Assembly: GCA_030038035.1 (NCBI GenBank)
Contig: JASHPP010000170.1
Span: 1 to 10,542 of the forward strand
Source of the DNA: Trebonia sp.
GTDB taxonomy: Bacteria > Actinomycetota > Actinomycetes > Streptosporangiales > Streptosporangiaceae
Length of the DNA: 10,542 bases
Direction of reading: 5' to 3'
Part shown: piece after piece, positions 1 through 9,939 of the stretch
How positions within the stretch are numbered: position 1 is the stretch's first letter
Layout of the letters: each line of letters begins with the position of its first letter
Made by a program: the position numbers and the translations under genes
The notes under the pieces: generated by a model
The model's database searches: none
What the model was told of the DNA's origin: nothing
Seen by the model: the letters and a program-made list of their open reading frames with translations, nothing else

Positions 1-374
1 TTACCGAGCAGGGTGTTGCGCAGCGGGACCAGGGGGTGGAAGAGCAATGCGAACAGCAACGCGAAGAAAACGCCGTCGGTGAAGTGGGATAGTTCACCGA
101 CGATATAGACCGCCGCTGTCGGCGCGGTGCCGACAGGAACACCAAGGATGAGCTCGCCGTTGGCCACCGGCCAGTTGACTGAGGGCAGCCCGAAGCCGCC
201 GAACCAGATGCCGAAGACGGTGGCGAACTGGGTCGCGACGGCGCCGGCGAGCAATGAGCTGCCGATCGGGTGAGTGGCGACCCAGGCCCGCCAGCGCGGC
301 AGGGAGTCGTCGGTCGGAATGCGGGTGAACAGCCCGGCTGCGGAGCCACGGGCTGCGGAGCTAGTGGTACTCAC
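1..374 (-). CDS. Unrecognised membrane protein, partial (C-terminus beyond left edge)
   Basis: The reading frame opens at a GTG (374-372) and stays open for 124 codons to the window edge, so the C-terminus is missing. The start is supported by a perfect AGGAGG (386-381 on the minus strand) six bases upstream. The N-terminal 35 residues are polar. A hydrophobic, probably membrane-spanning segment covers about residues 36-60 and is rich in Ala, Gly, Phe and Trp. A second covers about 101-118 (GVFFALLFALLF). Between them is a Gly/Pro-rich loop containing GELILGVPVG. I do not recognise the family and assign no function. The gene follows the catabolic cluster on the same strand but is separated from it by a 107-bp gap with two palindromes and a -35-like hexamer, so it probably has its own regulated promoter. 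A role in uptake or membrane passage of the aromatic substrate is possible only by context. Confidence 0.75.
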   Translation of the reverse strand, partial: MSTTSSAARGSAAGLFTRIPTDDSLPRWRAWVATHPIGSSLLAGAVATQFATVFGIWFGGFGLPSVNWPVANGELILGVPVGTAPTAAVYIVGELSHFTDGVFFALLFALLFHPLVPLRNTLLG

Positions 375-481: not shown

Positions 482-1522
482 TCAGCCGCTTTCTCGGAGC
501 CTGCGAGCCGCCTCGGCCGCTGCCGACATCTTGCTGATCGCGAGATATCGCGGCACCCGGCGGAGCCCGCAATCGGTCGATATCTCGAGGTGCTCGGGAT
601 CCCGGTATTCCAGGCAGGTGCGGACACGCTCGATAATGTCTTCCGGCGTCTCGGAGTAATGGGTCTTGATGTCGATGAGCCCGGCCGACAGGATGCGGTC
701 GCGGTCCCACTTGCCGACCAGGTCGATCTCGGCCATCTCCCGGGCACCGAACTCCAGGCTGAACCCGTGCACGTTGGCGTCGAGCAGCGCCGGGAACAGC
801 CAGCGGTAGGTGCGCTTGGCGTACGGCAGGCGGCGGAACGAGCCGAAGCAGATGTGCACGACGAACGTGCACCCGGTGATCCCTTCGACGACCTTGTTGA
901 TGACCGCGACCAGGTTCTCCGGCGTCCGGTCCTCGGCCGCGTGCGAGGGCGTCAGCGGTTCCTCGATCTGGATGTAGTCGCACCCGGCCGCCACCAGGTT
1001 GAGGATGTCCTGACGGATGGCCGGCACGAGCGCCTCGGCGCAGTCGCGGCGGTTGCGGTACACCGGGCTGAAGTCAAGCTCTGTCGTTATGCCGTACGGG
1101 CCCGGCATGCCGATCTTGGGCCGGCGGTCCGTGCGCGCCCGCAGGAACTCGTACTCGCTGACGTAGTCCCAGATCGACTTGATCTCGTCGAGCGGCTGCT
1201 GCACTTCGTAGACAGGGAGCATGTCCCAGCCGATCGCGCCGAGCTTGCGCGGGGACGGGCGCATGGTGATCCCGCGCATCGAGCCGGTGATGCCCTCGAT
1301 CCAGCCAAGCCGGCGGTGCTCGCCGTCGGTGAGGATGTCCAGGCCGGCGCGTTCCTGGTCGTAGATCGCCAGCTGACAGTAGTCGTCGAAGAGTTCCCTG
1401 CGGTCCGCCGGGCCGAAGCGGCCCTCTTTGCCGGCGTCCGCGAGGATGTCCCACCAGCCTGGCCGCGCCCAGCCTCCGGTGGTGGTGACCGGCAGCGTGG
1501 CCGGGTACTGGTAATCGCTCAT
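482..1522 (-). CDS. Stand-alone MetE C-domain-like zinc methyltransferase (COG0620 family)
   Basis: This 346-residue protein belongs to the UROD/MetE-like TIM-barrel superfamily. Cobalamin-independent methionine synthase is about 750 residues with two barrels; this protein has only the catalytic C-terminal barrel. A full zinc site like that of MetE is visible: His223 and Cys225 (VVHICFG), Glu257 (FSLEFG) and Cys318 (STDCGL). An acidic barrel motif, YIQIEEP (about 183-189), and TDGEHRR (65-71) also fit. Such proteins move an alkyl group to a zinc-bound thiolate. Known acceptors include homocysteine, and in the related epoxyalkane:coenzyme M transferases, coenzyme M. The ATG overlaps the phosphatase stop codon by four bases (ATGA, 1522-1519), so translation is coupled and it is the last gene of the run. 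The context suggests demethylation of a methoxylated aromatic, or recycling of the methyl group, but neither donor nor acceptor can be read from the sequence. Confidence 0.9.
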   Translation of the reverse strand: MSDYQYPATLPVTTTGGWARPGWWDILADAGKEGRFGPADRRELFDDYCQLAIYDQERAGLDILTDGEHRRLGWIEGITGSMRGITMRPSPRKLGAIGWDMLPVYEVQQPLDEIKSIWDYVSEYEFLRARTDRRPKIGMPGPYGITTELDFSPVYRNRRDCAEALVPAIRQDILNLVAAGCDYIQIEEPLTPSHAAEDRTPENLVAVINKVVEGITGCTFVVHICFGSFRRLPYAKRTYRWLFPALLDANVHGFSLEFGAREMAEIDLVGKWDRDRILSAGLIDIKTHYSETPEDIIERVRTCLEYRDPEHLEISTDCGLRRVPRYLAISKMSAAAEAARRLRESG

Positions 1523-2301
1523 GACAGGCCCTTCAATGCGGTGATCAGCTCATCGTGGATGTGCCCGTTGCTGGCCACGACGTCGGCGCGCTCGGCGGTC
1601 TCGTGCGGGCGGCCGTCGAACAGGGTCAGCGTGCCGCCTGCTTCCTGGAGGATCAGCTGGCCCGCGGCGACGTCCCAGGCGTCCATCGCGTACTCGCAGT
1701 AGGCTTCGAGCCTGCCCGCCGCGATGGCGCACAGCACCAGCGCGGGGGAGCCGAAGGAACGGACTCCGCCGGCCACGTGCATCAGCCGCTCCACGAGGGC
1801 CGCGTAGGCGCGGATCTGCCCGGCGTCGACCGACTGAGCCTGTGCGACGACGAGCGCGCGGTCGAGCCGGGTGACGGCCGAGACGCGAAGCGCGTGCCCG
1901 TCGCGGGTGGCGCCGCCGTCGAGTTCGGCCGCGAACATCTCGTCGTGCGCCGGGTCGTAGACTGCCCCGGCCACCGTCCGGCCACGGCTGCGCAACGCGA
2001 CCGACACGCAGTAGAAGGGCACGCCGTGCGCGTAGTTCGTGGTCCCGTCGAGCGGGTCGACGTACCAGACGTGCTCGGTGTCGGGGTTCCCCGTGGTGCC
2101 CTCCTCCCCGACGACCGCGTGGTCGGGGAACGCGCGCCTGATGACCTCGGTGACCGCCTGCTGGGACTCGCGGTCCGCGACCGTGACCAGGTTGGCCCGC
2201 GCGTCCTTGTAGGCGATCTCCAGGTCCCCGCCGCGCTGTCGCGCCATGAGCACCGCGCCGCCCGCGCGCGCCGCCGCTTGCGCGGTGTCCCGAACGGTCA
2301 C
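1519..2301 (-). CDS. Inositol-monophosphatase-family Mg2+-dependent phosphatase
   Basis: A GTG start at 2301 gives 260 residues, the normal size for the family, and overlaps the stop of the upstream ATP-binding subunit by four bases (GTGA). The frame continues further upstream, but that extension would lie inside the preceding gene. The metal-binding signature is complete: Asp43 (LVTVAD), Glu66-Glu67 (VGEEG), Asp82 and Asp85 (DPLDGTTNY), and Asp207/Asp210 (MDAWDVAAG). The enzyme should hydrolyse a phosphomonoester. The family includes inositol monophosphatase, histidinol phosphatase, PAP phosphatase and fructose-1,6-bisphosphatase, and residues alone do not settle the substrate. Coupling to two phenylphosphate-synthase-like subunits argues that it removes the phosphate they install on a phenolic compound, the role played by CreD in cresol catabolism. 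That assignment is inference; the phosphatase fold is near certain. Confidence 0.93.
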   Translation of the reverse strand: MTVRDTAQAAARAGGAVLMARQRGGDLEIAYKDARANLVTVADRESQQAVTEVIRRAFPDHAVVGEEGTTGNPDTEHVWYVDPLDGTTNYAHGVPFYCVSVALRSRGRTVAGAVYDPAHDEMFAAELDGGATRDGHALRVSAVTRLDRALVVAQAQSVDAGQIRAYAALVERLMHVAGGVRSFGSPALVLCAIAAGRLEAYCEYAMDAWDVAAGQLILQEAGGTLTLFDGRPHETAERADVVASNGHIHDELITALKGLS

Positions 2302-3416
2302 GCGCCGGGAACCTTGAACACGTTGCGCAGCGCGTACTGGACCGGGTCGAACGGCTTGGCAGCGGCCGCGGGGGCCGCGGGCGGCGCGGGTGGCGCGGGC
2401 GCCGCCTCCGGCGGCTCGCCCTCCCCGGCTGGCGTGAGCCACGTGGTCTCCGGGCGGTGCTGGAGGAAGAACACGCTGCCCGGCAAGGACCTGTCGCGGG
2501 CGATCGCCCACTCGACGTCCTGCGGGACACCCTCGTGCCGCTCGATCTCGGCCGCCTTCTCGCACAGGTAGCGCACCTCGTCATCGTCGAGGCAGGGCTG
2601 CCCGGCGAGCCCGGCGGGCAGCGGCGAGAACACCACCCGCCCGGCCGCCGGCTCGAAGACTGACCACTCGTGCTTGGCGCCCACGCGTCGCGTGATGATC
2701 TGGCCGCTCGCCCGGTCGACTTCCCAGTGGTCGGGCGTCACCTGCCCGGATACGACGCTCTCGCCGAACCCCCAGTTGGCCTCGACAACCAGTCGGCCGC
2801 GGTCCCCGGTGACGGGGTCCAGCGTGAACACGACGCCGGCGGACCGCACGTCGATCAGTTGCAGGACGCCGACCGCGAGGTCATGGGAGTGCAGTGGGCT
2901 CTTGCCTATCTGACGGCGGTACTCCAGGGCGTGCGGGGTGTACCCGCTTGCCCAGCACTTCCTGATGTGGTGCAGCACGTCGGCGACCTCGCTGATGCCG
3001 AGGTACGTGCCAAACTGGCCGGCGAAGCTGGCGCTGCCCCCGTCCTCGCCGACGGCGCTCGACCGCACCGCGACCCGCAGCCCGGCTCCCAGGCCCGTGC
3101 GCTGCCGCAGCCGCTCATGGGCCAGCCGGACCGCGTCCTCCAGCCACCCAGGCAGTTCCTGTTCGAGGATGAGGGCCTGCGCCCGCTCAGAAAGCCGCTG
3201 GAGCGTGGCCGGGTCGTGCTCCTGGCCCGCGAACAGCCGCGCCAGCTCGGCCCTGGTCGCGGCGGACAGCCAGCCGTCGAGCGCCTCCACCGGCACCGCG
3301 TATCCGTCGGGCACAGGCCAGCCGGCGGACGCCAGCTGGCCTAGCCGTGCCATCTTCGGCCCCACCCGGGGGATGTCGGTGATCCGGATCTCGCCGAGGT
3401 CGAGGACTGGGGTCAC
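2298..3416 (-). CDS. ATP-binding subunit of a phenylphosphate-synthase-like enzyme (PpsB/CreI type)
   Basis: This is a 372-residue PPDK_N (PEP synthase N-terminal) ATP-binding domain with no swivel or PEP domain. Visible motifs in order are VGPKMARLGQLASAGWPVPDG (about 18-38, whose first 20 residues are the glycine/lysine loop), VAVRSSAVGEDGGSASFAGQ (115-134), SAGVVFTLDPVTGD (192-205), VEANWGFGESVVSG (211-224) and DVEWA...FFLQHRPET (300-324). Size and content match Thauera PpsB, about 40 kDa, which uses ATP to phosphorylate the histidine of its partner. After the domain comes a Pro/Ala-rich linker (about 331-353) and a 19-residue tail (KPFDPVQYALRNVFKVPGA) that may dock to the partner. The GTG start at 3416 overlaps the swivel-subunit stop by four bases (GTGA), and its own stop overlaps the phosphatase start in the same way. 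A rifampin phosphotransferase or ordinary PEP synthase is excluded by domain order. Confidence 0.9.
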   Translation of the reverse strand: MTPVLDLGEIRITDIPRVGPKMARLGQLASAGWPVPDGYAVPVEALDGWLSAATRAELARLFAGQEHDPATLQRLSERAQALILEQELPGWLEDAVRLAHERLRQRTGLGAGLRVAVRSSAVGEDGGSASFAGQFGTYLGISEVADVLHHIRKCWASGYTPHALEYRRQIGKSPLHSHDLAVGVLQLIDVRSAGVVFTLDPVTGDRGRLVVEANWGFGESVVSGQVTPDHWEVDRASGQIITRRVGAKHEWSVFEPAAGRVVFSPLPAGLAGQPCLDDDEVRYLCEKAAEIERHEGVPQDVEWAIARDRSLPGSVFFLQHRPETTWLTPAGEGEPPEAAPAPPAPPAAPAAAAKPFDPVQYALRNVFKVPGA

Positions 3417-5245
3417 GGGATCGCCGGGAAGACCTGGACCGTGCCCGCCCGGCCGTCCACCCGGACGCGGTCGCCGGTCTTGATGGCCTGCGTGGCTTTC
3501 GCCGTGCCGACCACGCAGGGGATGCCGTATTCGCGGCTGACGATCGCCGCGTGCGTCAGGCTGCCTCCGGTGTCGCACACGCAGGCCTTGATGATGCCGA
3601 AGACGGGGGTCCACTCGGTCGTCGTGCCGCCGCAGACGAGGATGTCGCCCGGCTGTACCTGGCTGATGTCCGCCACGGTCGTGATCACCCGGGCGGTGCC
3701 CTCGGCCACGCCCTTGGCGGCGGGGAAGCCGCGCAGCTCGGTGGCGCCTTCCGTCCCGTCCCTGAGCGTCTGCAGGAAATGCCCGGACAGGCCGAAGACC
3801 TCGATCATGATCGGGTCGGGCACCGTGTCGGGAATCGTGCCGAGCATGGTCGGCAGCTCGGGACCGCGGTGCTTCCAGTGCTCGAAGAACGCGCGCCGGT
3901 CGGGGATCTTCGCTGCCAGCTCCGGCCAGCGTTCGTCACCGCCCTCCATGACCGCGAACAGCTCGGGCTTGAACAGGAAGAAAACGTCGTCTGGCTGGTC
4001 GATCGTGCCGTCGGCCGCAAGGCGCCTGCCCAGCTCGAGGCTGGCCCGGCGGACCGGGATCGCCGCCCGCCGGTCGATCAGGTAGTTGTGCTCCTCGTTC
4101 CACCAGGCGAAGTTGGCCGCCAGGTTGCTGGCGAGCGCCTCGTTGAAGCGCTGCAGGTCCGACCCGTTGATGGCGCGCCGCGCCGCCTCGATCTGCTCGT
4201 CCCGCTCGGCTATCGCCTGCTGGCGCGCCGCGTGGAAGTCGAACCCGGTCGGCTTGGACAAGAAGGTCCCGATGGCGTACAGCGCGGGTGACGGGTCCTC
4301 GATCCAGGACGGCGTGTCGACCCGGCAGGTCTCCTCGGTCCGCTGACCGTAGGCGGACAGGAACCCCGCGAAGTCGTTCCACCAGGTGCGCCCGTGCGGG
4401 AGCGCTTCAACCCGGGCCTTCATGTCGGTCGGCGCGGCGTGCAGCAGCGGCCCGGCGACGTCAAGCTCGCGGGCGCGCCCGGCCAGCCGCCACAGCTCCT
4501 CGTCCGTCTTGCTGTAGAAGGTCTGCTGGCCGGACAGGAACGCGGAGACCATCGAGCCTTCCAGCCCGATCTCCTCGGCCAGCGCGTAGAAGGCCAGATA
4601 GTTCGCCGTCAGGACGTACATCACCTCGAAGTGGATGAACCACGCCCTGCGGTGGAACGCGTACGCGTCCTTCACCGCCGTCCACAGCTGGCCCGGGTCC
4701 ATCGAGGCGAGGTCCAGGTTGTCCAGGTAGTCGTAGGCCGACTGCAGCTCGCCTGCCCGCATGGCCCAGTAGCTGTCGAAGTTCTGCAGCACCGGCCCGA
4801 CGTACGCACCGAACCGCGCGGCCCGGGACTGGATCTGCCAGTCGGTGTCGACATCGATCGTGCCGATGTAGACGTGCGTGCCCGCGAGCCGGTTCACCGA
4901 CCCCCGGGTCGGCGGCACCCCGACGATCTCCGCGCCCAGCTGCGCGCCCCAGGTCTGGGCGTCGTCGAGAGTGGCGATGCTGGCGGGCACCATCCCCTCG
5001 CTGAAATGCAGCGAGTCACGCAGCCAGTAACGGGCGTTGTCCGCCTTGCCGAACGGCCGCACCGGGCCGGCCACGAAAGGCTGGCTGCCGAACGCCGGCT
5101 TGTACCCGGGATAAAGCTCCTCCCGGACGAAATCGTCAACAGGGAAAATCCTCGGCTTGTCCTGTGCGGCCACGCCCAGTATCACCTCTGCACTGAAGTG
5201 GGATATGTTTCCCAAAGTCTCCCGTGCGGCCGGGCGCTTAGGCAA
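3413..5245 (-). CDS. Phosphohistidine-swivel catalytic subunit, phenylphosphate-synthase-like (PpsA/CreH type)
   Basis: This protein has up to 610 residues (about 67 kDa). The C-terminal 75 or so residues are a PEP-utiliser mobile domain: TTTEWTPVFG, then DTGGSLTHAAIVSREYGIPC with the phosphoryl-carrying histidine at about residue 565, then TGDRVRVDG. There is no PEP/pyruvate-binding barrel after it. The N-terminal two thirds resemble PpsA of phenylphosphate synthase as I remember it: FPVDDF...ELYPGY, RYWLRDSLHFSEGMVP, and a VYIGTIDVD segment. This part should bind the phenolic acceptor. The expected reaction takes phosphate from ATP through the neighbouring ATP-binding subunit onto His565 and then to a phenol hydroxyl. 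The first start in frame is TTG at 5245, 11 bases after ligB, with no good ribosome-binding site. TTG at 5215 (after GGGAG), GTG at 5185 and GTG at 5173 are alternatives, so the N-terminus is uncertain by about 24 residues. The acceptor substrate is unknown. Confidence 0.88.
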   Translation of the reverse strand: MPKRPAARETLGNISHFSAEVILGVAAQDKPRIFPVDDFVREELYPGYKPAFGSQPFVAGPVRPFGKADNARYWLRDSLHFSEGMVPASIATLDDAQTWGAQLGAEIVGVPPTRGSVNRLAGTHVYIGTIDVDTDWQIQSRAARFGAYVGPVLQNFDSYWAMRAGELQSAYDYLDNLDLASMDPGQLWTAVKDAYAFHRRAWFIHFEVMYVLTANYLAFYALAEEIGLEGSMVSAFLSGQQTFYSKTDEELWRLAGRARELDVAGPLLHAAPTDMKARVEALPHGRTWWNDFAGFLSAYGQRTEETCRVDTPSWIEDPSPALYAIGTFLSKPTGFDFHAARQQAIAERDEQIEAARRAINGSDLQRFNEALASNLAANFAWWNEEHNYLIDRRAAIPVRRASLELGRRLAADGTIDQPDDVFFLFKPELFAVMEGGDERWPELAAKIPDRRAFFEHWKHRGPELPTMLGTIPDTVPDPIMIEVFGLSGHFLQTLRDGTEGATELRGFPAAKGVAEGTARVITTVADISQVQPGDILVCGGTTTEWTPVFGIIKACVCDTGGSLTHAAIVSREYGIPCVVGTAKATQAIKTGDRVRVDGRAGTVQVFPAIP

Positions 5246-5256
5246 GCCCTACGCGG

Positions 5257-6099
5257 TCATGCCGCCGGCTCAAGCAGCATCATCCCGGCCGCGGTGTTGG
5301 AGATCGGTATGTGGTAATTGGCCGTGATCGCCCTGGCGCCGGCGCCCAGGGCGGCCCTGGCGGTGAGCCACAGCAGCAGCTCGATGCCCTGGCTGCCGGT
5401 CTGCTCCACGAGCTCGATCGTCGAGTACCTGGTCACCCAGGTCGGGTCCGCGGTGAGGCTGGCCATGAACTTCTGGTCGAAGGCCTTGTTGATGAACCCG
5501 GCACGCTCGCCGTCCAGCTGGTGGGAGAGCCCGCCGGTTCCCATGACCAGGACGCGCAAGTCCTCGGGGTAGGAGGCGATGGCCCGGCCAAGCGCCTCGC
5601 CGAGCCGGTAGCAGCGCGCCGCCGACGGCAGCGGGAACTGGACGGTGTTGATCTCGACCGGGACTATGCGCACCGGCCACTCCTTGCCGCCTGGCCACAG
5701 CAGCGCCATCGGATTGCAGAGGGCGTGATCCACCAGCATCTCCTGGCACATCGTGATGTCGAAGCCCTCGGCGACGACGGAGTTGATCACGTGCCACGAC
5801 AGCTGCGGGTCGCCCCTGAACGGCAGCACCGTCGGGATGTTCCAGCCCTCGTCGGCGCTCTGGTATTCGGTCGCCGCGCCAATCGCGAACGTCGGCAGCT
5901 TGTCGAGGAAGAAGTTCAGCCCGTGGTCGTTGTAGACGATCACGGCGACGTCCGGCCTCGCCTGCGCCAGCCACCGGTGCACCGGCTTGAACCCGTCGAA
6001 CCACTCTTTCCAGTACGGGTCTTCCTGCTGGCCCTTGGCTATGGCCCGGGCAATAGCCGGGACGTGCGAGGTCGTAACGCAGCCGATTATCTTCGCCAT
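5257..6099 (-). CDS. ligB: LigB-type class III extradiol dioxygenase, catalytic (beta) subunit
   Basis: This 280-residue non-haem Fe(II) dioxygenase opens the ring of an ortho-dihydroxy aromatic next to the two hydroxyls (meta cleavage). The iron ligands of Sphingobium protocatechuate 4,5-dioxygenase LigB (His12, His61, Glu242) appear here as His12 (TSHVPA), His59 (YNDHGLNFF) and Glu240 (TGSQGIELL). The catalytic acid/base histidine is His193 (GTGGLSHQL) and a further conserved histidine is His125 (MLVDHAL). The C-terminal motif YHIPISNTAAG, near the carboxylate-binding region of LigB, is kept. The ATG at 6099 lies three bases after the ligA stop; a GGAAGGA about nine bases upstream, inside the end of ligA, can serve as ribosome-binding site. 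Protocatechuate, gallate, a methylgallate or another substituted catechol are all possible substrates; the family call is firm and the substrate is not. Confidence 0.93.
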   Translation of the reverse strand: MAKIIGCVTTSHVPAIARAIAKGQQEDPYWKEWFDGFKPVHRWLAQARPDVAVIVYNDHGLNFFLDKLPTFAIGAATEYQSADEGWNIPTVLPFRGDPQLSWHVINSVVAEGFDITMCQEMLVDHALCNPMALLWPGGKEWPVRIVPVEINTVQFPLPSAARCYRLGEALGRAIASYPEDLRVLVMGTGGLSHQLDGERAGFINKAFDQKFMASLTADPTWVTRYSTIELVEQTGSQGIELLLWLTARAALGAGARAITANYHIPISNTAAGMMLLEPAA

Positions 6100-6102
6100 T
6101 TC

Positions 6103-6450
6103 CTATCGTCCTTCCGCGACGAGCCGTGCCTTGAATTCCTCCTTGGAGACCCCGGTCTGCTGGGCGCCGATGTCCTGGACGTCAAGGCCGAAGATGCCGG
6201 CGAACTTCGCCAGGTAGTAGATGTTGCCGCCCGCGGCGATCAGCTCGAGCACGTTCCTGTGCCTGACCGCCTCGCGCTGCTGCGTGCTGAGCCCGTAGCG
6301 CGCGCAGTACGCGTCCTCGTCCGCGGCGAACTCCGCCCGGTTGGCGGCGTCGTTGAACGACATGCACATCTTGTTCAGCGCGTAGCCCTTCCGGGCCTGG
6401 TCGCCGTCGAAGAGCGTTGTTCCTGGTACGGGCTGGCGTGTCGTAGTCAT
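6103..6450 (-). CDS. ligA: LigA-type alpha subunit of the extradiol dioxygenase
   Basis: This 115-residue all-helical small subunit forms part of the active site together with LigB. Family hallmarks are GTTLFDGDQARKGYALNK, MCMSFNDAANRAEF, DEDAYCARYGLS and GGNIYYLAKFAGIFGLD, ending with QQTGVSKEEFKARL. The TAG stop lies three bases before the ligB ATG, which implies co-translation and a 1:1 complex. I chose the ATG at 6450, with GGGG about seven bases upstream. An in-frame ATG at 6525 would add 25 residues (140 in all, close to the 139 of Sphingobium LigA), but the added stretch is low-complexity Ala/Arg and lacks a ribosome-binding site. It is the first gene of the tight dioxygenase-to-methyltransferase run; a promoter is expected in 6451-6593 but I see no convincing -35/-10 pair. 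Confidence 0.9.
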   Translation of the reverse strand: MTTTRQPVPGTTLFDGDQARKGYALNKMCMSFNDAANRAEFAADEDAYCARYGLSTQQREAVRHRNVLELIAAGGNIYYLAKFAGIFGLDVQDIGAQQTGVSKEEFKARLVAEGR

Positions 6451-6593
6451 GCGGGTGCCCCATTCGAAAGTCCGCGATCGTGTGGCCTGCACATAAAGGT
6501 CGGCTGCCGCTTGCGCGCGTGCCATGGACGGAAGTCCCGGTGATCAGGGCCCTTCGGCGGGGTCTGCGGCCGCCGGCAGGGCCGGTCGGGCGG

Positions 6594-7826
6594 TCAGCCG
6601 AGGCTGAACCCGAGGTCGCGGCCCGCCTCGCGCAACTCGTCCCTGGCCGCCGGGTGCGCCACCGACGTGATGATCGCCTCGGCCTGTGCCGAGGCGTCGT
6701 GGCCCCACACGGTCGCGGTTCCCTGGTCGCTGACGATGAAGCTGTGCTGGAACGAGGTCACCGGCCCGGCAAGCCTGGGGACCACGGTGGACACCCCGGC
6801 CTTCGGATGCCAGGAGGGCAGGGCGATGATCGCCTTGCCGCCGGGGGAGTGCAGCGCGCCGACCACGAAGTCGGTCTGCCCGCCGAACCCGGAGTAGATC
6901 AGCCCGTGCACACGGCTGGCGTTGGCCTGCGCGAACAGGTCCACCTGCAGCGCGCTGTTGACCGAGGTCATCCGCGCGTGGCGGGCGATTCGCGCCGGGT
7001 CGTTGGTCGTCTCGGTGCGCAGCATGCGGATGCCCGGATTGCGGTCCATCCAGCCGTACAGCTCCGCGCTGCCGAACGCGAACGACGCGATGACCGGCTG
7101 GCCTGCTTCCAGCGCGCCGGCCTTCGCCAGGCCGAGCACGCCGTCGCTGAACATCTCCGACCACACGGTCAGCCCGCGCCGGGTAGTGAGCGCGGCGAGC
7201 ACGGCATCGGGAACCGCGCCGATCCCCAGTTGCAGCGCCGCGCCATCGGGCACCAGGGCGGCCACCCGGTCACCGATGGCCGCCGACGCCGCAAGCGGCG
7301 GCCGCGGCCGCGGCGACGGCAGCGGGACGTCGGCCTCGATCCCGTAATCGATGTCGCCGACCGAGACGACAGCGTCCCCGTAGGCGTAGGGCACGTGGCT
7401 GCTGACCTGCGCGATGACCAGCCCACCGCGGGCGCGGGCGGCCTCGATCGCCGCCGGCAGCACGTTCACCTCGGTGCCGAGCGATACCGTTCCGTCCGCC
7501 GGGGGCGACGTCTGCACGAGGACGACGTCGGGCGGCAGGGTGCCCGCCAGCATGACCGGCACCAGCGACAGGCGGCAGGGAAAGTACAGCAGGCGCGGGA
7601 GGCCCCGCATGCCGGGACCGATGAACGGCGACTCGAGGACGACCCCTTCCCGGTCAGGGACGCCCGGCTGGGCGTTCAGCATGAACAGCCGGTACTCGGC
7701 AACCGCCGTGTCGAGCACGGCCAGCGCATGCCACGGGGTGGCGAAGTTCCCGCCGGCCACCACCCGGGGAGCGCCGGGCAGCGCGCTGAGCACAGCACCA
7801 AGCCGCGAGCCTGACACGATCCGCAT
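6594..7826 (-). CDS. Acetyl-CoA hydrolase / 4-hydroxybutyrate CoA-transferase family protein
   Basis: With the ATG at 7826 the protein has 410 residues. It belongs to the Cat1/4-hydroxybutyrate CoA-transferase family, which moves CoA between carboxylic acids through a glutamyl-CoA intermediate. The catalytic glutamate is Glu224 in VWSEMFSDGV, the family signature. GIGAVPDAVL (201-210), the glycine-rich GFGGQTDFVVGA (313-324) and the KAIIALPS stretch also match. In-frame alternatives start at ATG 7883 and TTG 7904, but family homology begins near residue 2 of the chosen form and no start has a Shine-Dalgarno. A GATAAT hexamer exactly six bases before the ATG suggests a leaderless message. It lies on the same strand, 143 bp upstream of ligA. 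It could activate an acid formed in the pathway, or be unrelated; the substrate cannot be told from sequence. Confidence 0.9.
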   Translation of the reverse strand: MRIVSGSRLGAVLSALPGAPRVVAGGNFATPWHALAVLDTAVAEYRLFMLNAQPGVPDREGVVLESPFIGPGMRGLPRLLYFPCRLSLVPVMLAGTLPPDVVLVQTSPPADGTVSLGTEVNVLPAAIEAARARGGLVIAQVSSHVPYAYGDAVVSVGDIDYGIEADVPLPSPRPRPPLAASAAIGDRVAALVPDGAALQLGIGAVPDAVLAALTTRRGLTVWSEMFSDGVLGLAKAGALEAGQPVIASFAFGSAELYGWMDRNPGIRMLRTETTNDPARIARHARMTSVNSALQVDLFAQANASRVHGLIYSGFGGQTDFVVGALHSPGGKAIIALPSWHPKAGVSTVVPRLAGPVTSFQHSFIVSDQGTATVWGHDASAQAEAIITSVAHPAARDELREAGRDLGFSLG

Positions 7827-7832
7827 CAGGTC

Positions 7833-7838
7833 ATTATC
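7833..7838 (-). promoter_or_regulatory. Candidate -10 element giving a leaderless CoA-transferase mRNA
   Basis: GATAAT on the minus strand (five of six matches to TATAAT) ends six bases before the ATG at 7826. Transcription would therefore begin at or next to the start codon, which fits the absence of a ribosome-binding site. No recognisable -35 lies 16-18 bases upstream. Confidence 0.4.
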
Positions 7839-7909
7839 GCTGGCGGCCCGGCCGCCCGGCCGCAGCAGATCGGCGGGAACCATCAGAGCCGTTGCCGCGT
7901 CCAAGGAGC

Positions 7910-9429: not shown

Positions 9430-9873
9430 TCAGGCGTACTTCTCCACCAGCGCTCCGACCTGCGGGAGAGCAGCCTTCACGTGCTTGGAGGCACCCCCGC
9501 GCACGGTGTTGTAGGCCTTCACGATCACGGGCCGCTGCGAGTTCCGGCCACGCTCGTCGGTGATCGACAGCAGCGACTCACTGACCTCGTCCTCGCGCTT
9601 GACGAGGTAGTCGCCGAACGAGCCGCCGCCGCCGGCGTTGAAGTCCGCCCAGTAGGGCTGAAGCTGGTCGGCCATGCCGGGGAGCAGCGTCGAGACCATG
9701 TAGTGGATGTGGTCCGCGGAGAAGGTGCGCACGGTTTTGTAGGCAAGCTTGACCGCCGTCCCCGAGACGCCGGACATATCCGAAATTTCGTGATTTATCA
9801 GCGCTTCGCAATCGAGGATTACCTGGGGTTCGATCTCGGGTGCTAGCAACATCTCGTGCAGCGTGGCTGCCAT
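9430..9873 (-). CDS. Small conserved actinobacterial protein, DUF6918-like
   Basis: With ATG 9873 the protein has 147 residues. It resembles a family I know from actinomycetes as DUF6918: MAATLHEMLL at the start, a helix with DCEALINHEIS, SGVSGTAVKLAYKTVR (about 35-50), LLPGMADQLQPYWADF, then FGDYLVKREDEVSESLL and the C-terminal ALPQVGALVEKYA. It has no signal peptide or membrane segment and appears helical and cytoplasmic. No biochemical role is known to me. AAGGAG lies 13 bases before the ATG. A GTG at 9897 would add eight residues but contains that ribosome-binding site within it, so the ATG is preferred. The gene is monocistronic here, convergent with the lipoprotein and divergent from the kinase. 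Confidence 0.82.
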   Translation of the reverse strand: MAATLHEMLLAPEIEPQVILDCEALINHEISDMSGVSGTAVKLAYKTVRTFSADHIHYMVSTLLPGMADQLQPYWADFNAGGGGSFGDYLVKREDEVSESLLSITDERGRNSQRPVIVKAYNTVRGGASKHVKAALPQVGALVEKYA

Positions 9874-9939
9874 GGCCGGCTGTTTTCTCCTTATCACCTG
9901 GGCCGGGCGCGCCAGTCGCGGGCGCCCGCCCTCCTCCCC

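Follow-up and report, generated by a model that had tools for sequence, protein, structure and literature searches.

A conserved dikinase, phosphatase and MetE-like gene quartet in Trebonia as a candidate module for phosphate-primed phenol breakdown

The closest described relatives of the system reported here are the phenolic dikinases PpsAB, CreHI and HpeHI/AcvAB, which have separate ATP-grasp and swivel/substrate subunits, a catalytic histidine following a GG motif and a phosphatase encoded nearby. Their swivel motif has been given as T/SxxGGxxxH (PMC12167813). In the Hpe and Acv pathways (PMC9618137 and PMC13101465), a kinase and a phosphatase bracket a middle enzyme; the Hpe carboxylase acts only on the phosphorylated compound, and NagD is the closest characterised homolog of HpeD (PMC9618137). 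We analysed 10,542 nucleotides of DNA from the soil actinobacterium Trebonia sp. (contig JASHPP010000170.1, hereafter the window) and found a quartet of genes with the same bracketed layout, encoding the two subunits of a dikinase, a phosphatase and a MetE-like zinc protein. It differs from the Hpe/Acv pathways in having the MetE-like protein in place of the biotin carboxylase, and a phosphatase of the inositol-monophosphatase type (IMPase) rather than a relative of NagD such as HpeD. We read the quartet, with a probability of about 0.38, as a catabolic module for phosphate-primed (methoxy)phenol breakdown, in which the substrate would be phosphorylated, an alkyl group transferred to a zinc-bound thiol and the phosphate then removed.

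The quartet and its dikinase

In the direction of transcription, on the minus strand, the quartet begins with the swivel (phosphohistidine) and substrate-binding subunit of a two-component dikinase (3413..5173, PF00391), followed by the dikinase ATP-grasp subunit (2298..3416, PF01326, 1.1e-76), the IMPase-family phosphatase (1519..2301, PF00459, 5.5e-61, 206.9 bits against a cut-off of 27) and a single-domain MetE-like zinc protein of a distinct subfamily (482..1522, PF01717). Each of the last three genes overlaps the preceding gene by 4 bases (start/stop at 3416/3413, 2301/2298 and 1522/1519), once the starts of the ATP subunit and the IMPase are corrected, as read from the sequence, to GTG 3416 and GTG 2301. 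The open reading frame of the swivel subunit reaches TTG 5245, and its start is probably GTG 5173, which lies within one residue of the starts in 8 of 12 aligned relatives. The preliminary description of this DNA had seen an uninterrupted run of six genes, the quartet preceded by ligA and ligB. Gene placement confirmed the run, all on the minus strand and within 482..6450, and a Pfam scan of the six proteins returned LigA, LigB, PEP-utilizers, PPDK_N, Inositol_P and Meth_synt_2, every score being above its cut-off. Chance origin of the run is not an issue, because the active-site residues are intact and orthologous loci exist. The six genes are two units, a conserved quartet and a LigAB neighbour.

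Scanning an alignment of the swivel subunit against genome contigs yielded 24 loci (L001–L024), the closest of which, L001 on a contig of a Trebonia sp. metagenome-assembled genome (MAG), was 90% identical over the swivel subunit. The order swivel, ATP subunit, IMPase, MetE-like was complete in the Trebonia-like loci L002, L003, L004 and L005, L003 being from Trebonia kvetii; contig ends fell within the run in L001 and L006. Across a sample of 341 genomes of the family (designated by G numbers), a swivel ortholog (at least 74% identity) was present in six and a window-type MetE (E <=1e-90) in five, all five also having the dikinase ortholog; the sixth swivel genome, G339, gave a partial swivel match (residues 11–355) and no MetE at 1e-90. 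No window-type MetE was found at the same threshold in the 397 Mycobacteriales genomes drawn. The grouping of kinase pair, phosphatase and MetE-like protein put forward in the preliminary description was thus borne out as a conserved unit, by the gene order in L002–L005 and by the five MetE genomes that all carry the dikinase. It had also suggested looking for conserved co-occurrence and order of all six genes, and this part divided: the quartet order was kept in L002–L005 and LigAB was not kept with it. A recurring P450, UbiD or transporter, likewise proposed there, was seen only in part, as an ABC transporter confined to loci outside the quartet group; at L001–L005 neither a CreJ-type P450 nor PpcA/UbiD nor a biotin carboxylase was matched, which sets these window-type loci apart from those of PpsAB, CreHI and HpeHI/AcvAB. 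No middle enzyme of the Hpe/Acv, Cre or Ppc types was detected at L002–L005 or among the ten window proteins scanned.

Beyond the quartet, the neighbours in L002–L005 were not clearly aromatic. A flavin-monooxygenase-like gene stands directly after the MetE-like gene on the same strand in L004 (9688–11139), and an FAA-hydrolase-family gene lies on the strand opposite the quartet in L005 (6444–7274); either is a possible further pathway step, the FAA-hydrolase family including meta-pathway hydratases. A further MetE-like gene, different from that of the quartet, lies in L002 some 6.4 kb upstream of the dikinase.

The ATP-grasp and swivel domains are encoded by separate genes (PF01326 and PF00391), the two-subunit arrangement of the phenolic dikinases, and the best solved match of the ATP subunit was 9GOJ (E 2.5e-69), the structure of HpeI (PMC12167813). 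The swivel subunit has a GGxLxH motif with catalytic His565 and was 38–45% identical to those of L007–L024, and 27–31% identical to PpsA, CreH-type and HpeH-type proteins identified by gene context. These references were a PpsA of Azoarcus KH32C, encoded next to ppcABDG; CreH-type proteins from two plasmids of Rhodococcus, where P450, ferredoxin and reductase genes are the neighbours; and two HpeH-type proteins, one from a Rhizobium plasmid, accompanied by a biotin carboxylase, a HAD hydrolase and a CoA ligase, and one from an unannotated Rhodococcus plasmid on which a biotin carboxylase was matched. In a quick tree of 53 rows, its reference rows named from gene context rather than by assay, the window swivel belonged to a clade apart from that of the PpsA, CreH-type and HpeH-type proteins (Shimodaira–Hasegawa-like approximate likelihood ratio (SH-aLRT) 100 on both branches, no bootstrap); the long-branched L046, of the 30% group, fell into the window's clade and L055 at the root, both placements being flagged unsure. 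Counting L046 in the window's clade and setting aside L055 (Thr plus Leu), the motif had Cys in 29 of 32 and Leu in 32 of 32 members of that clade, against Ser/Thr and Met in 20 of 20 of the other, and the catalytic His was retained in all 52 swivel rows. The window swivel, with Cys at the T/S position and Leu for Met, departs from the published T/SxxGGxxxH. Its structure model was poor (predicted local distance difference test, pLDDT, 55.5). The separate clade and different motif are our reasons for not assigning the dikinase to PpsAB, CreHI or HpeHI, and the earlier label "PpsA/CreH-like" fails in the strict sense, the subunit lying outside the clade of those proteins.

The MetE-like protein and the phosphatase

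The MetE-like protein is a lone catalytic domain whose best PDB match, by sequence and by fold, was 3RPD (MesD); its structure model (pLDDT 86.4, predicted template-modelling score (pTM) 0.89) gave a TM score of 0.81 to 3RPD. In MetE, four residues bind zinc and three bind homocysteine, as defined by Price et al. 2021 (PMC7857596). All four zinc ligands were kept in the window protein (H223, C225, E257 and C318) and were identical in 96 of 96 aligned relatives, those of at least 330 residues from the best 120 of 1236 found. Of the homocysteine residues, Ser433, Glu484 and Asp599 (E. coli numbering) correspond to Gly (G17), Glu and Glu (E187). Among the same relatives position 433 was G in 63, A in 28 and S in 5, position 599 was E in 93 and D in 3, and both positions were changed in 90 of the 96; Ser, Glu and Asp were all kept in 23 of 23 aligned MetE-like proteins of other types. 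Judged by these residues, the amino-acid pocket of the window subfamily is rebuilt, and because of this a thiol other than homocysteine would be favoured for it. Asp to Glu is in itself a mild substitution.

Like the core methionine synthases MesA–MesD, the window protein is the MetE catalytic domain alone with the same four zinc ligands. It differs from them in that the homocysteine Ser and Asp are replaced and in falling far below the NCBIfam cut-offs: its best match scored 173.4 bits where 406 are required, so that no curated MetE or core methionine synthase score was attained. DUF1852 (MesX, the partner of MesD) was absent from the ten window proteins scanned, the genomes not having been searched for it. 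A MetH-type B12 domain was matched in all five quartet genomes, beginning at model position 47 in four of them; the matches in G001 and G005 hold one stop codon each. The quartet genomes probably have this MetH-type enzyme as another methionine synthase, and a role for the MetE-like gene as methionine supplier was judged unlikely in view of the MetH-type domain and the two changed homocysteine residues. The genomes G001, G005, G339, G340, G342, G003 and G780 hold 14–23 PF01717 stretches each (some genes giving two), which should far exceed the need for methionine synthesis. Plasmid relatives of the MetE types had mixed gene contexts.

The IMPase has the motifs DPLDGTT, GEEG and DAWDVAAG, which we take to be the metal-binding motifs of the family, so that both family domain and metal-binding motif are present. 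It reached no NCBIfam cut-off.

Company of the dikinase clade, and LigAB

Genes of the dikinase clade occur in several phyla, next to phosphatase genes and often to genes of ring cleavage. Among the 18 non-quartet loci L007–L024, a HAD or IMPase phosphatase stood beside the dikinase in 16, the others being L017, a 3.8 kb contig, and L022. Ring-cleavage or ring-hydroxylase genes lay near the dikinase in nine of the 18: a gentisate-dioxygenase-like gene in L007, a catechol dioxygenase in L008, L009, L010, L013 and L019, and HpaB in L018, L020 and L021 (the L013 match ends at the end of the locus, and a catechol-dioxygenase match in L020 was weak, at 23%). MetE-like genes were found in four of the 18 (L009, L010, L012 and L016); L096, which covers 19 kb of genome G196, has one as well. 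The gammaproteobacterial loci L009 and L010 read swivel, ATP subunit, MetE-like, HAD phosphatase, catechol 2,3-dioxygenase, amid DmpF (acetaldehyde dehydrogenase), DmpG (aldolase), aldehyde dehydrogenase, FAA-hydrolase-family and phenol hydroxylase genes; the L009 MetE-like protein had no solved relative at E <=1e-3. The route imagined in the preliminary description, from phosphorylation to ring cleavage, has in these loci an independent, kindred meta-pathway operon, while its use of LigAB as a conserved part did not survive. The dikinase of L096 (7384–12843) stands next to an IclR regulator, a MetE-like gene that shares 68% identity with the L009 one, and a Rieske protein whose C-terminus is of the LigXa type; the module looks like a cross-phylum transfer. 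A MetE-like gene within 7.5 kb of the dikinase occurred, outside the quartet, in three of ten lineages against about 0.14 expected (P about 2e-4), a rough value for which lineages were collapsed and gene counts rounded by hand and which concerns a pattern already seen beforehand. L040 and L045 are not among the ten lineages; the regions retrieved for them (L097 and L099) gave no match to MetE.

Branched-chain ABC transporter genes were seen at L014, L016, L018, L021, L023 and L024 and had no match at the quartet loci. L018 (2375–16504), L021 (888–15072), L014, L023 and L024 combine the transporter with a HAD phosphatase and an aldehyde dehydrogenase, with a HpaB-type monooxygenase in L018 and L021; this is a putative catabolic cluster. 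L007 and L017 come from the same MAG, labelled Thaumarchaeota, and the two contigs, which bear catabolic genes, may be mis-binned.

LigA, the small subunit of an extradiol dioxygenase, is encoded at 6103..6450 on the minus strand (PF07746; NF009918 201.5 bits against a cut-off of 161), its start corrected to ATG 6450 as read from the sequence, and LigB, the catalytic subunit, at 5257..6099 on the same strand (PF02900; NF009901 475.5 bits against 290). As in protocatechuate 4,5-dioxygenase, both subunits are present, and alignment to 1B4U showed H12, H59, H193 and E240 of LigB to be kept, presumably the iron ligands and the catalytic His. LigA and LigB are separated by 3 bases; the gap from LigB to the swivel subunit is 83 bases with GTG 5173 and 11 bases with TTG 5245. 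LigAB directly adjoins the dikinase only in the window. The DNA from the ligA start to the ligB stop (6451–5257) matches 1557–2751 of the closest relative, L001, with a match that begins at 6451, and there LigAB lies 4 kb from the dikinase. LigB orthologs (at least 72% identity) were found in four of the 341 family genomes: on a contig other than that of the quartet in G340 and G341, 4 kb upstream of the quartet in G342, and in G343, which had no dikinase match (E <=1e-30). The quartet genomes G001 and G005 have no ortholog, their best LigB relatives being at most 43% identical. No neighbour of LigAB in G340 resembled the window's genes. Because the placement of LigAB differs so among relatives, the six-gene run is best described as the quartet with LigAB next to it, either a newcomer or a remnant. 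LigAB was therefore rejected as a fixed partner of the quartet, given the other contigs in two genomes and the missing ortholog in two quartet genomes, and the earlier view of it as a conserved part of the pathway was set aside.

MetE-like genes also occur in ring-cleavage clusters without a dikinase match. In L117 (7743–10961) LigB, a 339-residue protein and MetE form a triad, with a similar one in L115 (7962–11147). MetE lies about 9 kb from LigB in L116 (5316–16324), with a CaiB-type CoA transferase and a citryl-CoA lyase between them; L118 (6509–13257) has, by likeness, the same layout, and in L113 (7995–12259) a MetE-like gene accompanies these two enzymes in a ring-cleavage cluster. Plasmid pUSP2 of Aminobacter sp. 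MSH1 carries MetE, citryl-CoA lyase, CaiB-type CoA transferase, an extradiol dioxygenase and a 121-residue protein. These clusters support a catabolic role for MetE-like proteins in ring-cleavage clusters generally. They also weaken the argument that LigAB and the MetE-like protein form one pathway with the dikinase in the window.

The same-strand run is longer than six genes. Upstream of LigA lies a gene for an acetyl-CoA hydrolase/transferase-like protein (6594..7904, minus strand, PF13336), which had no match at L001–L024, and downstream of the MetE-like gene the membrane protein F13 (3..374, minus strand) runs off the window end. Three Trebonia-like loci have a gene of the F13 family (about 210 residues) after the MetE-like gene; homologs are found downstream of MetE in L002 (14909–15547) and G342, in L123, and beside the dikinase in L007 (4763–5083) and L017 (1522–2061). 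None of the 120 relatives listed, of 143, had a Pfam domain. F13 may serve the system as its transporter. A DUF6918 gene at 9430..9897 on the minus strand has homologs just upstream of the dikinase genes of L002 and L005, at a distance of about 250 bases from the swivel gene in L002. In the window this place is taken by LigAB, the CoA transferase and a lipoprotein-like gene, which separate the DUF6918 gene from the dikinase. No promoter- or terminator-like sites were found, and a tRNA and Rfam search gave no match.

Proposed route and its alternatives

From gene content, linkage, active-site residues and clade membership, which were established directly, we infer the phenolic substrate, the order of steps, the demethylation and the catechol product. 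The dikinase would move the beta-phosphate of ATP, by way of a swivelling phosphohistidine, onto the hydroxyl of a phenolic compound that is probably plant-derived and most likely a methoxyphenol; phosphorylation through phosphohistidine follows from the architecture together with the biochemistry of HpeHI, PpsAB and CreHI (PMC12167813). The company of the dikinase clade makes a phenolic substrate likely. The MetE-like zinc protein would act on the aryl phosphate, passing the O-methyl group to a zinc-bound thiol that is probably not homocysteine; the kept zinc site makes alkyl transfer to a zinc-bound thiol reasonably probable. The IMPase would then strip the phosphate and free a catechol for ring cleavage, and its position among the genes makes dephosphorylation quite probable, a little more so than the alkyl transfer. 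That the transfer is specifically an O-demethylation, as the catechol-consuming neighbours in L009/L010 might suggest, is a tentative proposal. In this strain the LigAB encoded directly upstream may cleave the ring without being an obligate partner, though we regard it as doubtful that it is the next step; in other species the ring-cleavage enzyme would be encoded elsewhere. The boldest version is an oxygen-independent aryl O-demethylation: the dikinase would phosphorylate a methoxyphenol, a zinc enzyme derived from MetE would hold its substrate by the phosphate while passing the methyl group to a non-homocysteine thiol, and the phosphatase would free the catechol. The same logic would then have evolved two or more times, in Trebonia and in gammaproteobacteria, with MetE-like proteins of different subfamilies. 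On balance we think this version unlikely.

Several observations weigh against the module as we read it. The five genomes in which dikinase and MetE co-occur are close relatives and not independent. The dikinase-linked MetE-like proteins of L009, L010, L096, L012 and L016 keep all three homocysteine residues, and those of L009, L010, L012 and L016 are only 22–26% identical to the window's; for these reasons the types at the five loci need not share the window reaction. Fourteen of the 18 loci L007–L024 had no MetE-like match, so the dikinase does not generally need such a protein, and the substrate at L009/L010 may be phenol, because a phenol hydroxylase is present there. Finally, queries for LigA, LigB, catechol dioxygenase and cupins had no match at L002–L005. 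This last result also favours a non-aromatic or biosynthetic substrate for the dikinase, as for PEP synthase, rifampicin phosphotransferase or the prodigiosin ligases, with the quartet standing outside aromatic catabolism, and the NCBIfam matches do include RedH, PigC and RPH. We hold that explanation to be improbable, as the architecture is that of the two-subunit phenolic dikinases and half of the sister loci in the clade carry aromatic ring-cleavage or hydroxylase genes.

Kinase and phosphatase might instead trap and release a phenol, the dikinase holding it in the cell and the phosphatase freeing it; the MetE-like protein would then serve some other purpose, for instance the recycling of methyl groups from a different O-demethylase. 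Trapping was raised in the HpeHI paper (PMC12167813), the kinase–phosphatase pairing occurs without a MetE-like match at most of L007–L024, and L009/L010 join dikinase, phosphatase and phenol hydroxylase. In the quartet, however, the MetE-like gene overlaps the IMPase gene and among the 341 genomes occurs only with the dikinase, and the altered homocysteine pocket speaks against plain methionine recycling; we consider this account rather unlikely, yet somewhat less so than a zinc thiol transferase. The latter would resemble epoxyalkane:CoM (coenzyme M) transferase, a MetE relative, and would add or remove a thiol on a phosphorylated intermediate with no methyl transfer. An intact zinc site, the pocket changes of Ser to Gly/Ala and Asp to Glu, which suggest another thiol, and the flavin-monooxygenase-like gene of L004 are in keeping with it; the remaining quartet loci, at which only some of the neighbours were scanned, showed no oxygenase of this kind, and a literature search on epoxyalkane:CoM transferase yielded nothing. 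The proposal of the preliminary description, a single dedicated six-gene pathway with LigAB cleavage as its last step, is to us the least probable. It draws on the shared strand, the 83-base gap, the lack of any terminator-like match and the proximity of LigAB to the dikinase in L001, and it is opposed by the scattered LigB orthologs, one of them in a genome with no dikinase match and two on other contigs, by the distant LigB relatives in G001 and G005, and by the DUF6918 gene that takes the place of LigAB in L002.

For the phosphate-primed module, the phosphate-bracketed logic is already known; novelty appears to lie in the dikinase clade and in the middle enzyme. In the open-licence literature searched, none of the papers listed was recognised as describing such a unit, whether the topic was MetE, demethylation or guaiacol in connection with a dikinase or phenylphosphate synthase, or cobalamin-independent methionine synthase in connection with O-demethylation or extradiol cleavage. 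Nor did the papers listed, those on core methionine synthases and related kinases included, give a function for the dikinase clade or the window MetE subfamily. To our knowledge, the known bacterial aryl O-demethylases use oxygen (P450 or Rieske enzymes), tetrahydrofolate or corrinoids. The P450 enzymes include AgcA, GcoA and SyoA (PMC13101465). If the reading is true, a phosphate-primed zinc-thiol route would be new chemistry for methoxyphenols, relevant to lignin turnover and valorisation. Even without demethylation, a deep multi-phylum dikinase clade and a MetE subfamily with a rebuilt pocket are two concrete, testable enzyme families. The authors of the HpeHI study considered it unclear why such pathways start with phosphorylation (PMC12167813), and the quartet would be a place to test this.

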